A DNA stretch of 64,000 bases from assembly GCF_900156335.1 (NCBI RefSeq), contig NZ_FTMZ01000019.1, forward strand, positions 1 through 64,000, written 5' to 3'. Numbering within the stretch: the first letter of the stretch is position 1; every line of letters begins with the position of its first letter. The translations under genes were made by a program, and so were the position numbers. Shown piece after piece: positions 45,428 through 48,385 of this stretch. This DNA comes from Sphaerotilus natans. GTDB taxonomy: Bacteria; Pseudomonadota; Gammaproteobacteria; Burkholderiales; Burkholderiaceae_C. Under the pieces are notes generated by a model. The model was not told the origin of the DNA. It saw nothing but the letters and a program-made list of their open reading frames with translations, and did no database searches.

Positions 45428-46960
45428 TCAGCGCAGGAACAGCCGGTAGACCGGGTTGTCGGTCTCTTCGGTGAAGGGATAGGCCAGCGTGTCGAGGAAT
45501 TCGCCGAAGGCCGCCTCGTCGGCCGCCGGCACCTGGATGCCGACCAGGATGCGGCCGTAGTCGGCGCCCTGGTTGCGGTAGTGGAACAGGCTGATGTTCC
45601 AGTCCGGGTGCATGCTGGAGAGAAAGCGCATCAGCGCGCCCGGCCGCTCCGGGAACTCGAAGCGGAAGACCCGCTCGTCGCGGGCCAGTTCCGAGCGCCC
45701 GCCCACCAGGTGGCGCAGGTGCGTCTTGGCCAGTTCGTCGTGCGTCAGGTCGATCGCGCCGAAGCCCTGGGCCGCGAACAGCGCGCCGATCTCGGCCGAC
45801 TCGCCGCGCGTCTTCGTGCTCAGGCCGACGAAGATGTGCGCCACGCGCTCGTCGCTGATGCGGTAGTTGAACTCGGTGACGCTGCGCGGGCCGATCAGCT
45901 CGCAGAAACGCTTGAACGAGCCGCGCTCCTCGGGGATCGTCACCGCGAACAGGGCCTCGCGCTCCTCGCCGACCTCGGCGCGCTCGGCGACGAAGCGCAG
46001 GCGGTCGAAGTTCATGTTGGCGCCGCAGGTGATCGCCACGAAGGTCTTGCCGGTGCAGCCCTCGCGCGCGACGTATTGTTTCAGCGCCGCCACCGACAGC
46101 GCGCCCGAGGGCTCCAGGATCGAGCGGGTGTCCTGGAAGACATCCTTCATCGCTGCGCAGACCGCATCGGTGTCCACGACGATGAACTCGTCGACCAGCT
46201 CGCGCGCGACGCGGAAGGTCTCCTCGCCGACGAACTTCACCGCGGTGCCGTCGGCGAAGAGGCCGACGTCGTTCAGGCGCACGCGCTGGCCGGCGCGCAC
46301 CGACTGCAGCATCGCGTCGGAATCGACCGTCTGCACGCCGATGATGCGGATCTCCGGGCGCACCGCCTTGATGTAGGCCGCCACGCCCGAGATCAGGCCG
46401 CCGCCGCCGATGGCGACGAAGATCGCGTCGATCGGGCCCTCGTGCTGGCGCAGGATCTCCATGCCGATGGTGCCCTGGCCGGCGATCACGTCCGGGTCGT
46501 CGAAGGGATGGACGAAGGTCAGGCCCTCGGCCTCGGCGACCTTCAGCGCGTGGTCGTAGGCGTCGTTGTAGCTGTCGCCGTGCAGTACGACCTCGCCGCC
46601 GAGGTGGCGTACCGCGTCGACCTTGACCTGCGGCGTCGTCACCGGCATCACGATGACGGCGCGGCAGCCCAGGCGCTGGCTGCCCAGCGCCACGCCCTGG
46701 GCGTGGTTGCCGGCCGAGGCGCAGATGACGCCGCGCGCACGCTGTTCCGGGCTGAGGTGCGCCATCTTGTTGTAGGCGCCGCGCAGCTTGAAGCTGAAGA
46801 CGGGCTGGTTGTCCTCGCGCTTGAGCAGCACCTGGTTGCCCACTCGGCGCGAGAGCTGGCGTGCCGGCTCCAGCTCGGTCTCGCGCGCGACGTCGTAGAC
46901 CCGGGCGGTCAGGATGCGCTTCAGGTAGTGGTTCAGCAGGGTCTGGCGATCGTCGGACAT
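45428..46960 (-). CDS. ilvA: Threonine ammonia-lyase, biosynthetic
   Basis: A 510-residue PLP enzyme: threonine to 2-oxobutanoate plus ammonia, the first step to isoleucine. PLP lysine in FSFKLRGAYNKM, the phosphate loop GGGGLISG, the serine/asparagine block SAGNHAQGVA, and two C-terminal ACT-like regulatory domains (from about residue 325, ALFAVTIPEERGSFKRF and VFRFEFPERPGAL) that bind isoleucine and valine. The start at ATG 46960 (MSDDRQTLL) is the family N-terminus; an in-frame TTG 17 codons upstream is rejected. A terminator-containing leader lies upstream. Confidence 0.96.
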   Translation of the reverse strand: MSDDRQTLLNHYLKRILTARVYDVARETELEPARQLSRRVGNQVLLKREDNQPVFSFKLRGAYNKMAHLSPEQRARGVICASAGNHAQGVALGSQRLGCRAVIVMPVTTPQVKVDAVRHLGGEVVLHGDSYNDAYDHALKVAEAEGLTFVHPFDDPDVIAGQGTIGMEILRQHEGPIDAIFVAIGGGGLISGVAAYIKAVRPEIRIIGVQTVDSDAMLQSVRAGQRVRLNDVGLFADGTAVKFVGEETFRVARELVDEFIVVDTDAVCAAMKDVFQDTRSILEPSGALSVAALKQYVAREGCTGKTFVAITCGANMNFDRLRFVAERAEVGEEREALFAVTIPEERGSFKRFCELIGPRSVTEFNYRISDERVAHIFVGLSTKTRGESAEIGALFAAQGFGAIDLTHDELAKTHLRHLVGGRSELARDERVFRFEFPERPGALMRFLSSMHPDWNISLFHYRNQGADYGRILVGIQVPAADEAAFGEFLDTLAYPFTEETDNPVYRLFLR

Positions 46961-47027
46961 GGGCGAGAACAAGGGCAGAGTCGGGCAGAAGCGGCCGCTA
47001 GTGTCGCGCAAACCCGGCAGCGGGACG

Positions 47028-47058
47028 AAAAAAAGCCCGAGGCTTGAGGCCTCGGGCT
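47028..47058 (-). terminator. Strong intrinsic terminator between the small-RNA promoter and ilvA
   Basis: 10-bp perfect GC-rich stem, 5-nt loop, six following Ts on the minus strand. Reading minus, it would end the transcript starting at 47149 before reaching ilvA. Confidence 0.88.
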
Positions 47059-47149
47059 CAATCCACCTATGGAGGAGGGTGGAGGAGACAACCAGTGCTT
47101 GGGAGTGTCCGTCGTTCGAAAAGTTCTAGGGGACAGTCCCGATTGCTTG
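47028..47149 (-). ncRNA. Candidate small RNA or ilvA leader/attenuator, about 122 nt
   Basis: On minus, the promoter TTGCAA-N17-TACACT (47184-47156) predicts a start near 47149. The transcript would carry a CU-rich single-stranded stretch (47091-47071: UGUCUCCUCC ACCCUCCUCC), a small TCCACC/GGTGGA hairpin overlapping it, and then a perfect 10-bp stem AGCCCGAGGC-ctcaa-GCCTCGGGCT followed by TTTTTT (47058-47028). It contains no ATG and no leader peptide of isoleucine, valine or leucine codons. It therefore looks like a discrete sRNA with two anti-Shine-Dalgarno motifs, or alternatively a terminator-attenuated leader of ilvA, whose ATG is 68 nt further on. Inferred from sequence only. Confidence 0.6.
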
Positions 47150-47155
47150 TTCGAA

Positions 47156-47184
47156 AGTGTACCAAAGCGATTGCTGCATTGCAA
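47156..47184 (-). promoter_or_regulatory. Sigma-70-type promoter for the ilvA-upstream transcript
   Basis: -35 TTGCAA (47179-47184), spacer exactly 17 bp, -10 TACACT (47156-47161), read on the minus strand. It is the best-matching hexamer pair I found in this window. Confidence 0.65.
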
Positions 47185-47280
47185 CGAGAACTGGAGGCGT
47201 CCTGTCCAGGCCCCGCCGGTCCGTGCAGGGCATCGCGGTCGCACGTCACAATCGCTCCCTTTTCTGCGGAGACACGAGCG

Positions 47281-47718
47281 ATGGAGTGCACGATCAACTG
47301 GATGCCGGCCTCGGGCATGGCCTTTTCCGCCGAGACCGGCAGCGGCCACCTGCTGATGATGGACGGTGCGCCCGAGGGCGGCGGGCGCAACCTCGCCCCG
47401 CGGCCGATGGAGACGATGCTGGCCGGCGCCGGCGCCTGCACTGCCTATGACGTGGTGCTGATCCTCAAGCGCGGCCGCCATGCGGTGCAGGGCTGCCAGG
47501 TGAAGATGAGCGCCGACCGCGCCGAGACCGAGCCCAAGGTCTTCACCCGCATCGTCATGAAGTTCGTCGTCAGCGGCGCGAAGCTGCCCGAGGCGGCGGT
47601 GAAGCGCGCGGTGCAGATGTCCTACGAGAAATACTGCTCGGCCACTGCGATGCTGGCCAAGACGGCGCAGATCGATCTGGAGGTCGAGATCGTCGACACG
47701 GCGTTGCCGGCGGCTTGA
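47281..47718 (+). CDS. OsmC/Ohr-family peroxidase-like protein
   Basis: A 145-residue protein of the OsmC superfamily (YhfA-like branch). The first conserved cysteine lies in GAGACTAYDVVLIL (about residue 52) and the second in YCSATAML (about 121), the usual pair that reduces organic hydroperoxides; the arginine in the N-terminal APRPME segment is also kept. The start at 47281 has GGAGAC 8 nt upstream. Cytoplasmic detoxification is likely. Convergent with coq7. Confidence 0.9.
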   Translation: MECTINWMPASGMAFSAETGSGHLLMMDGAPEGGGRNLAPRPMETMLAGAGACTAYDVVLILKRGRHAVQGCQVKMSADRAETEPKVFTRIVMKFVVSGAKLPEAAVKRAVQMSYEKYCSATAMLAKTAQIDLEVEIVDTALPAA

Positions 47719-47734
47719 GTCCGACTGATCGGCT

Positions 47735-48385
47735 TCAGATGCGGTGCGCAGTGGCGGTCATGACCTTGGCGGCCGCGCGCATCAGCCAGCGCGCCGGCAG
47801 CGGCGGACGGATCCCGCCGGCGGCCTGCGCGGCTTCGGCGTGACGGATCTCGTCGTCGCGCATCTGCGCGACGATCGCCCGCGAGGCGTGATCGCCGACG
47901 GGCAGGCGCTGCAGGTGGCCGTCGAGATGCTGCTCGACCTGGCGCTCGGTCTCGATGACGAAGCCCAGGCTGGCACGGTCGCCCAGGCGCGCCGCGCCCC
48001 AGCCGATCGCGAACGCGCCGGCATACCAGAGCGGATTGAGCAGCGAGGGCCGGTCGCCGAGCTCCTTCAGGCGCTGTTCGGTCCAGGCCAGGTGGTCGGT
48101 CTCCTCGCGCGAGGCTTCTTCGAGCTGCTCGCGCAGCCGCTCGTCGCGGGTGGCCAGCGCCTGTGCGGTGTAGAGCGCCTGCGCGCAGACCTCGCCGACA
48201 TGGTTGACCCGCATCAGCGCGCCCGAGAGCCGGCGCTCGGCCTCGTCCAGCTCAGGCGTCTCGGCCGCGACCTGAGCGTCGGGCCGCGGCGTCGGCCGGC
48301 TGGCGTGGTGGTGGCTCCAGACGGTGCGCAGGCTCTGGTCCATGACCGACACCAGGCGGTCGATCGGCGAAAAGGTGATCTTCAT
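47735..48385 (-). CDS. coq7: 2-polyprenyl-3-methyl-6-methoxy-1,4-benzoquinone monooxygenase (Coq7)
   Basis: A 216-residue di-iron hydroxylase of ubiquinone biosynthesis. Ligand motifs: [16 protein letters not shown] (E and H-V-G-E), EETDHLAW, and late [11 protein letters not shown] and DDEIRHAE, giving the EXXH pairs of this family. The start at 48385 ([12 protein letters not shown]) is the family N-terminus. Peripheral inner-membrane association is expected. Ends 16 bp from the OsmC gene stop. Confidence 0.94.

Follow-up and report, generated by a model that had tools for sequence, protein, structure and literature searches.

Between an OsmC-family gene and ilvA, the 64,000-nucleotide stretch of Sphaerotilus natans DNA analysed here (the window) carries on its minus strand a short segment with a promoter-like element, two CUCCUCC segments and a terminator. 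This raises the question whether the segment encodes a free small RNA or a leader of ilvA, and what would switch it on. We consider it probable that the locus as a whole is explained by a trans-acting sRNA gene of the RF02278 family (47149-47027, minus strand), which is repressed by PhaR and serves as a brake once carbon stores are full. Sequence comparison suggests that the sRNA is switched on when the cell fills with storage polymer, and that it would then brake further food uptake. The argument draws on the following features.

45428-46960, minus strand: ilvA, threonine ammonia-lyase, a neighbour outside the sRNA unit
47027-47090, minus strand: sRNA body, RF02278 double hairpin, 64 nt (cmscan 67.3 bits, model positions 1-64)
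47028-47059, minus strand: intrinsic terminator of 11 pairs with a 5-nt loop, followed by seven T
47062-47083, minus strand: hairpin 1 (fold; 47083-47078 pairs with 47067-47062)
47071-47077, minus strand: second CUCCUCC (Site 2), unpaired in the loop of hairpin 1 (fold)
47081-47087, minus strand: first CUCCUCC (Site 1), partly unpaired, the rest forming the base of hairpin 1
47091-47149, minus strand: 5' leader, probably removed by processing (promoter-to-body distance; analogy with S17L and S17S)
47156-47184, minus strand: promoter, -35 TTGCAA (47184-47179) and -10 TACACT (47161-47156), recurring in relatives
47169-47189, minus strand: predicted PhaR-type operator, 21-bp frame overlapping the -35, core TGCAATGCA at 47183-47175
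47275-47718, plus strand: OsmC-family gene, a conserved neighbour
47735-48358, minus strand: coq7, a conserved neighbour, also beside S17 in Bordetella pertussis

A double-hairpin RNA between osmC and ilvA

A covariance search, by which an earlier note on this DNA had proposed to check its candidate sRNA, gave a full-length match to RF02278 ("Betaproteobacteria toxic sRNA") at 47090-47027 (minus strand; Rfam cmscan of the window) of 67.3 bits against a cut-off of 50, with E = 2.1e-11 in the 64 kb. The segment is a member of a known small-RNA family that covers the ribosome-binding sites of mRNAs. Since the RNA belongs to a catalogued family, the finding as such is not new; the earlier note missed both this family and the PhaR-like operator. 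Going by the family, the mature 5' end would lie at 47090. Fold, alignment and pair counts agree with the RF02278 layout of two hairpins, the second being an intrinsic terminator, and of unpaired CU segments, and in the fold of the 64-nt RNA the UGUCUCC at the 5' end (47090-47084) is unpaired. The first 11 bases are invariant in an alignment of 31 rows, in which one pair of hairpin 1 changes from C-G to U-A in two rows and the terminator stem drifts, with both sides of pairs changed. A terminator scan returned two overlapping candidates, against 0.4 in shuffles; the hairpin described in the earlier note is present at 47059-47033, but with 11 pairs instead of ten and with seven T, two of them also counted in the stem, instead of six.

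TTGCAA-N17-TACACT, the two CUCCUCC segments, the strong terminator and the lack of an ATG were all found on the minus strand where the earlier note had placed them, and the promoter arrangement recurs in relatives. With a spacer of 17 nt and a TGG preceding TACACT (extended -10), this sigma-70-type promoter would yield a precursor of about 120 nt ending at the terminator. It is weak by consensus (4+4 of 12), and a scanner with a threshold of 9 of 12 called no promoter, so that it gains weight solely through its conservation in relatives.

RF02278 matches occur in all 13 genomes of the window's genus, its own included, and in 170 of 200 genomes of its taxonomic family, 141 of these lying above the cut-off. 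We compared two sets of loci: 40 family loci, consisting of the 13 genus loci (own included) and 27 from the 30 best family matches and hence biased to strong matches, and at least 120 named loci, found by an exact 20-mer in many genera, with the taxonomic family of each left unassigned. Upstream lies osmC or coq7 in 40 of 40 family loci and, among the matches listed, in 87 of the 93 named loci whose sequence reaches far enough; coq7 itself is upstream on the same strand in 37/40 and, among the matches listed, 58/93. In the window, osmC stands between coq7 and the sRNA.

The window sRNA is probably the local counterpart of S17 of Bordetella pertussis, which adjoins coq7 and is reported to be transcribed from a sigma-A promoter as a 190-nt RNA and processed to 67 nt, with RNase E implicated; S17 binds Hfq and represses mRNAs with complementary ribosome sites, and in its absence 92 genes rise, 70 of which carry such sites (PMC11722255). 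Its authors liken it to RF02278 RNAs (PMC11722255). The coq7 neighbourhood, a leader before the CU-rich body and a sigma-70-type promoter are alike at both loci, whereas the predicted leader measures about 59 nt in the window and 123 nt in S17, and the window transcript lacks an ATG where S17 holds a putative 32-aa frame. As criterion for a counterpart we took an identical 27-nt 5' segment across Betaproteobacteria, compared with a locus of Bordetella genomosp. 2 (L074) as a stand-in rather than with S17 itself; two first-loop bases of L074 differ from the window sRNA. By analogy with S17, the precursor is probably cut near 47090 to leave the 64-nt double-hairpin RNA.

With S17 in mind, the other branch of the earlier note, a terminator-controlled leader (attenuator) of ilvA, can be weighed. 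A leader peptide was rejected, as 47148-47027 (minus strand) holds no ATG. In 39 of 40 family loci ilvA does follow the sRNA and its terminator on the same strand; among the named loci listed, however, it does so in 4 of 100, while the sRNA is kept and so is osmC/coq7. Moreover, it is the first 11 bases that are invariant and the terminator stem that drifts, and S17 is a free, Hfq-bound RNA (PMC11722255). We thus find attenuation of ilvA hardly credible, and the RF02278 match together with the reports on S17 supports the first branch, in which the sRNA is free and pairs with ribosome sites through its CU segments. The synteny counts link the sRNA to osmC/coq7, in the way that S17 is linked to coq7, and make ilvA a local neighbour: the sRNA is independent of ilvA.

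Further family members are reported from Herbaspirillum seropedicae (four; PMC7011215) and from Burkholderia cenocepacia, where four are expressed, one has a processing site, and the predicted targets concern the transport and metabolism of carbon and amino acids (PMC4603805, PMC5688073). With Burkholderia ncS03, ncS05, ncS27 and ncS62 the window RNA has in common the whole-length sequence and structure model of RF02278, CU segments both in the first loop and in the tail at the 5' end, and the terminator; it differs from these double-hairpin RNAs in sitting between osmC and ilvA. Weak similarity over hairpin and terminator to Burkholderia anti-hemB (RF02837, 27.1 bits, cut-off 49.5) and alphaproteobacterial ar14 (RF02344, 26.9 bits, cut-off 58.8) stays below threshold in both cases.

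A PhaR-type palindrome at the sRNA promoter

PhaR is a repressor that senses polyhydroxybutyrate (PHB). In Sinorhizobium meliloti its site is reported to have a core YGCRNYGCR with A/T-rich arms (PMC12542648), and the palindrome at 47189-47169 of the window agrees with 19 of the 21 positions of this consensus, which is that of another organism. The -35 hexamer of the sRNA promoter sits inside GTTGCAATGCAGCA. The core has 102 matches in the GC-rich window, and the site at 47169 scores no better than several of them; with so short and frequent a core, the case for PhaR rests on conservation, position and co-occurrence.

Concerning conservation, the 200 nt preceding the sRNA contain YGCRNYGCR in 38 of the 40 family loci and, among the matches listed, in 105 of the 115 named loci for which sufficient sequence was available, as compared to 4 and 9 (the latter among the matches listed) for the reversed motif and 3.5 and 3.8 for mononucleotide shuffles. 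Its position was counted, without a control, in 142 loci with a scorable -10-like hexamer: the core starts 22 nt ahead of the hexamer in 58 loci, or in 73 if 21-23 nt is allowed, and 42 nt ahead in 24, or in 40 for the range 38-44 nt. L074 of Bordetella genomosp. 2 has the 22-nt spacing. In the remaining 29 the core lies elsewhere, in 20 of them 9-12 nt before the -10, where the wrong hexamer was probably picked. The palindrome has been lost or moved in some Burkholderia and Cupriavidus loci, whereas a Herbaspirillum locus (L079) retains it.

The window's genome has PhaR (TIGR01848 match at G000:C43:9484-9804, besides matches to PF07879 and PF05233). In a set of 220 genomes from the order, RF02278 is found in 141 and PhaR in 151, the two not always coinciding; given the many genomes with RF02278 but without PhaR, no tie to PhaR holds for the whole family, and we rejected a strict dependence of this kind. 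Joint loss of sRNA and PhaR within the window's own family proved uninformative, PhaR being present in 195 of 200 genomes; of the five without PhaR, three retain the sRNA, and completeness is below 90% in four.

We turned to loci from PhaR-bearing and PhaR-less genomes, hand-picked among the matches listed and making up a part of these: 25 loci from 25 PhaR-bearing genomes outside the window's family, and 35 loci from 27 PhaR-less genomes. One of the loci, L374, has 164 nt of upstream sequence only. Among these matches, the core lies upstream in 22 of 25 PhaR-bearing and 2 of 35 PhaR-less loci, compared with two and two for the reversed motif; the Fisher p of 4e-11 is overstated, as are such p-values in general here, because the loci and genomes are related. 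Restricted to the osmC/coq7 arrangement, again among the matches listed, the core is found in 20/21 PhaR-bearing and 0/4 PhaR-less loci (p 4e-4). Both PhaR-less positives have the core 145-194 nt upstream, outside the promoter; like these, one PhaR-bearing positive (L387), with its core at -142 and a promoter of the ATTAG type next to it, is probably a chance match. The PhaR-bearing loci without a core are L359, L360 and L363, of which L360 has the osmC arrangement. The palindrome is conserved at the sRNA promoter and follows the presence of PhaR.

In most of the RF02278 promoters picked from PhaR-less genomes (L331-L350, L371-L385), a shared palindrome of a different sequence, about ATATTAGATAATTCTAATAA, stands near the -10.

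PhaR bound to the palindrome at 47189-47169 would repress the sRNA promoter, and PHB granules, by taking up PhaR, would release the sRNA together with the phasins. The nearest working analogue is the sRNA MmgR of Sinorhizobium, which is reported to be repressed by S. meliloti PhaR (PMC12542648) through a dyad within the -35/-10 region (PMC8401924). The two systems would work alike, a dyad for PhaR at the sRNA promoter, a predicted one in the window, being common to both; the window RNA is no member of the MmgR family (RF00519; 23.1 bits, below the cut-off of 41), and MmgR is reported to lower phasins, whereas the candidate targets here are transport and catabolism genes.

The published PhaR core with its 19 agreeing positions, its presence following the phaR gene and the like palindromes before phasin and phaZ genes of the window's genome all argue against a regulator other than PhaR at the palindrome of an otherwise real sRNA that pairs with ribosome sites. 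This alternative draws on the different conserved palindrome near the -10 of most PhaR-less loci, where other regulators may hold the promoter, and on the fact that PhaR has been assigned to the window's palindrome by comparing sequences; we judge it unlikely, and keep PhaR as the candidate repressor.

Candidate targets of the sRNA

As reported for S17, the 5' UGUCUCC and the loop CUCCUCC would base-pair with GGAGACA-type ribosome sites and block translation, and the sRNA, once released from PhaR, would lower the uptake and breakdown of external carbon sources. The claim of the earlier note that GGAGGAGAC-type ribosome sites are common here did not hold up: the single occurrence in the window is the complement of the sRNA itself. 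Among the genes that it gave as examples, livM and OsmC do have GGAGACA, but the acyl-CoA ligase and AAA+ genes lack an exact match. Besides the sRNA complement, GGAGACA occurs three times in the window, before the ATG of livM (26313, minus strand; ribosome site GAGGAGACA), of a gene which we take to be livH-like (27274, minus strand) and of the OsmC gene. The livM and livH-like matches are not kept in relatives, GGAGACA being present in 1/30 livM and 1/27 livH genes, each time the window's own; for osmC it is present in 1/40 family loci (the window's own) and, among the matches listed, in 0 of 92 named loci scored, three more having no ATG. All three genes were hence rejected as conserved targets.

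In the window's genome, GAGGAGACA followed by an ATG at 2-10 bases gives 30 matches at 29 sites (one 56-codon frame was kept), and 13 of the 29 genes are transport genes by Pfam, including three TctC, DctP, DctQ, sugar and amino-acid binding proteins, livM, an ABC ATPase and a sugar transporter. Among the others are a phenol hydroxylase, a gluconolactonase-like protein, a serine dehydratase and a 3-hydroxybutyrate-oligomer hydrolase, as well as three genes without a Pfam match. The control GAGGAGAMC, which covers two triplets, gives 29 matches at 28 sites, of which four with frames of 7-22 codons were dropped; transport genes number 2 of 24, or 4 of 24 counting two internal ABC fragments (Fisher p 0.005 or 0.04 against GAGGAGACA). 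The number of sites was discarded as evidence of targeting, at 30 versus 29 matches; only the kind of gene differs. GGAGACA serves as a ribosome site in 10/26 cases, against 220/2467 for all other GGAGNNN, a preference rejected as proof of targeting for being too weak against GGAGAAC (14/68, p 0.11). With site numbers equal between the sets and the window's own candidates not conserved, the evidence for carbon-uptake targets is suggestive only.

This enrichment for transporters bears on a further explanation, in which a toxin-like anti-Shine-Dalgarno RNA decreases translation in general and has no special role in carbon storage. Ordinary ribosome sites have a core that the CU segments match, and RF02278 is named for growth inhibition in E. 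coli, reported for some members on overexpression (PMC4603805, PMC5688073). However, S17S overexpression is reported to inhibit growth slightly and to leave the exponential growth of E. coli unimpaired (PMC11722255), and according to a review, whether ncS27 overexpression slows growth depends on the substrate (PMC10987360). Together with the kind of genes found here, this makes a general toxin improbable in our view, and we return to the PhaR-controlled brake.

Storage genes, a second copy and a wider reading

YTGCRNYGCAGCA matches the window's genome at 59 places, and the reversed pattern at 4. We examined 20 stretches of this genome, 19 picked around YTGCRNYGCAGCA matches and one around phaR; about half of the examined sites fall inside reading frames. 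In two stretches a phasin gene is preceded by a pair of PhaR-type dyads spaced 58 bp apart, and in one a PhaR-type site lies 55 nt before the PHB depolymerase gene (phaZ). PhaR-like sites also precede genes for a succinate dehydrogenase membrane subunit, a patatin-like protein and a solute-binding protein. The first of these lies 40 nt before its gene (L205 1544; G000:C12, about 56343); S. meliloti PhaR is reported to have bound the sdhC promoter (PMC12542648). The solute-binding-protein gene (L207/L236; G000:C23, about 318461-318720) combines an upstream PhaR-like site with a GAGGAGACA ribosome site, and so may be hit at both levels.

A second RF02278-like RNA of the window's genome, at 36.3 bits below the cut-off, lies directly behind a phasin gene (L002 1501-1565; G000:C35:61351-61415); it keeps UGUCUCCUC and lacks the second CU segment. 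Across the genus, 8 of 10 below-cut-off RF02278 matches lie behind a phasin gene, all eight with PhaR-type dyads upstream, a count made without a control.

Taken jointly, these observations could mean that the 'toxic' sRNAs of the S17/ncS27 family are the RNA arm of a carbon-storage switch in PhaR-bearing Betaproteobacteria, a reading for and against which we see the chances evenly balanced. PhaR would directly repress the osmC/coq7-linked gene, and in the window's genus a second copy would be cut from the 3' UTR of a PhaR-controlled phasin mRNA; storage granules would thereby silence the uptake and catabolism of further carbon. PhaR-less lineages would keep the sRNA with a different operator near the -10, and the repressor of Bordetella PS17 would be PhaR. 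The authors of the 2024 S17 preprint postulate that PS17 is under repression, with no repressor named (PMC11722255), a 2017 Burkholderia paper states that the regulation of the accumulation of these sRNAs is yet to be found (PMC5688073), and a 2021 review calls PHB riboregulation in Cupriavidus necator undeciphered (PMC8401924). The titles and abstract openings searched, mostly of non-subscription literature, contained no link of PhaR to RF02278, S17 or ncS27, and neither PHB nor PhaR occurs in the main texts of PMC11722255, PMC5688073 and PMC10987360. PhaR control of the sRNA is thus apparently a new link, and a testable one. The operator evidence names a candidate repressor and a signal for this sRNA family; if true, the system would be the counterpart in Betaproteobacteria of rhizobial MmgR, and relevant to bioplastic producers.

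Two further RF02278-like RNAs (near 1501 in L022 and L023) lie behind another, non-phasin gene, with no PhaR-type dyads upstream in the locus. Finally, three genomes of one family of the order (G216, G264 and G384) hold 8 or 9 RF02278 matches each, which suggests a local expansion.
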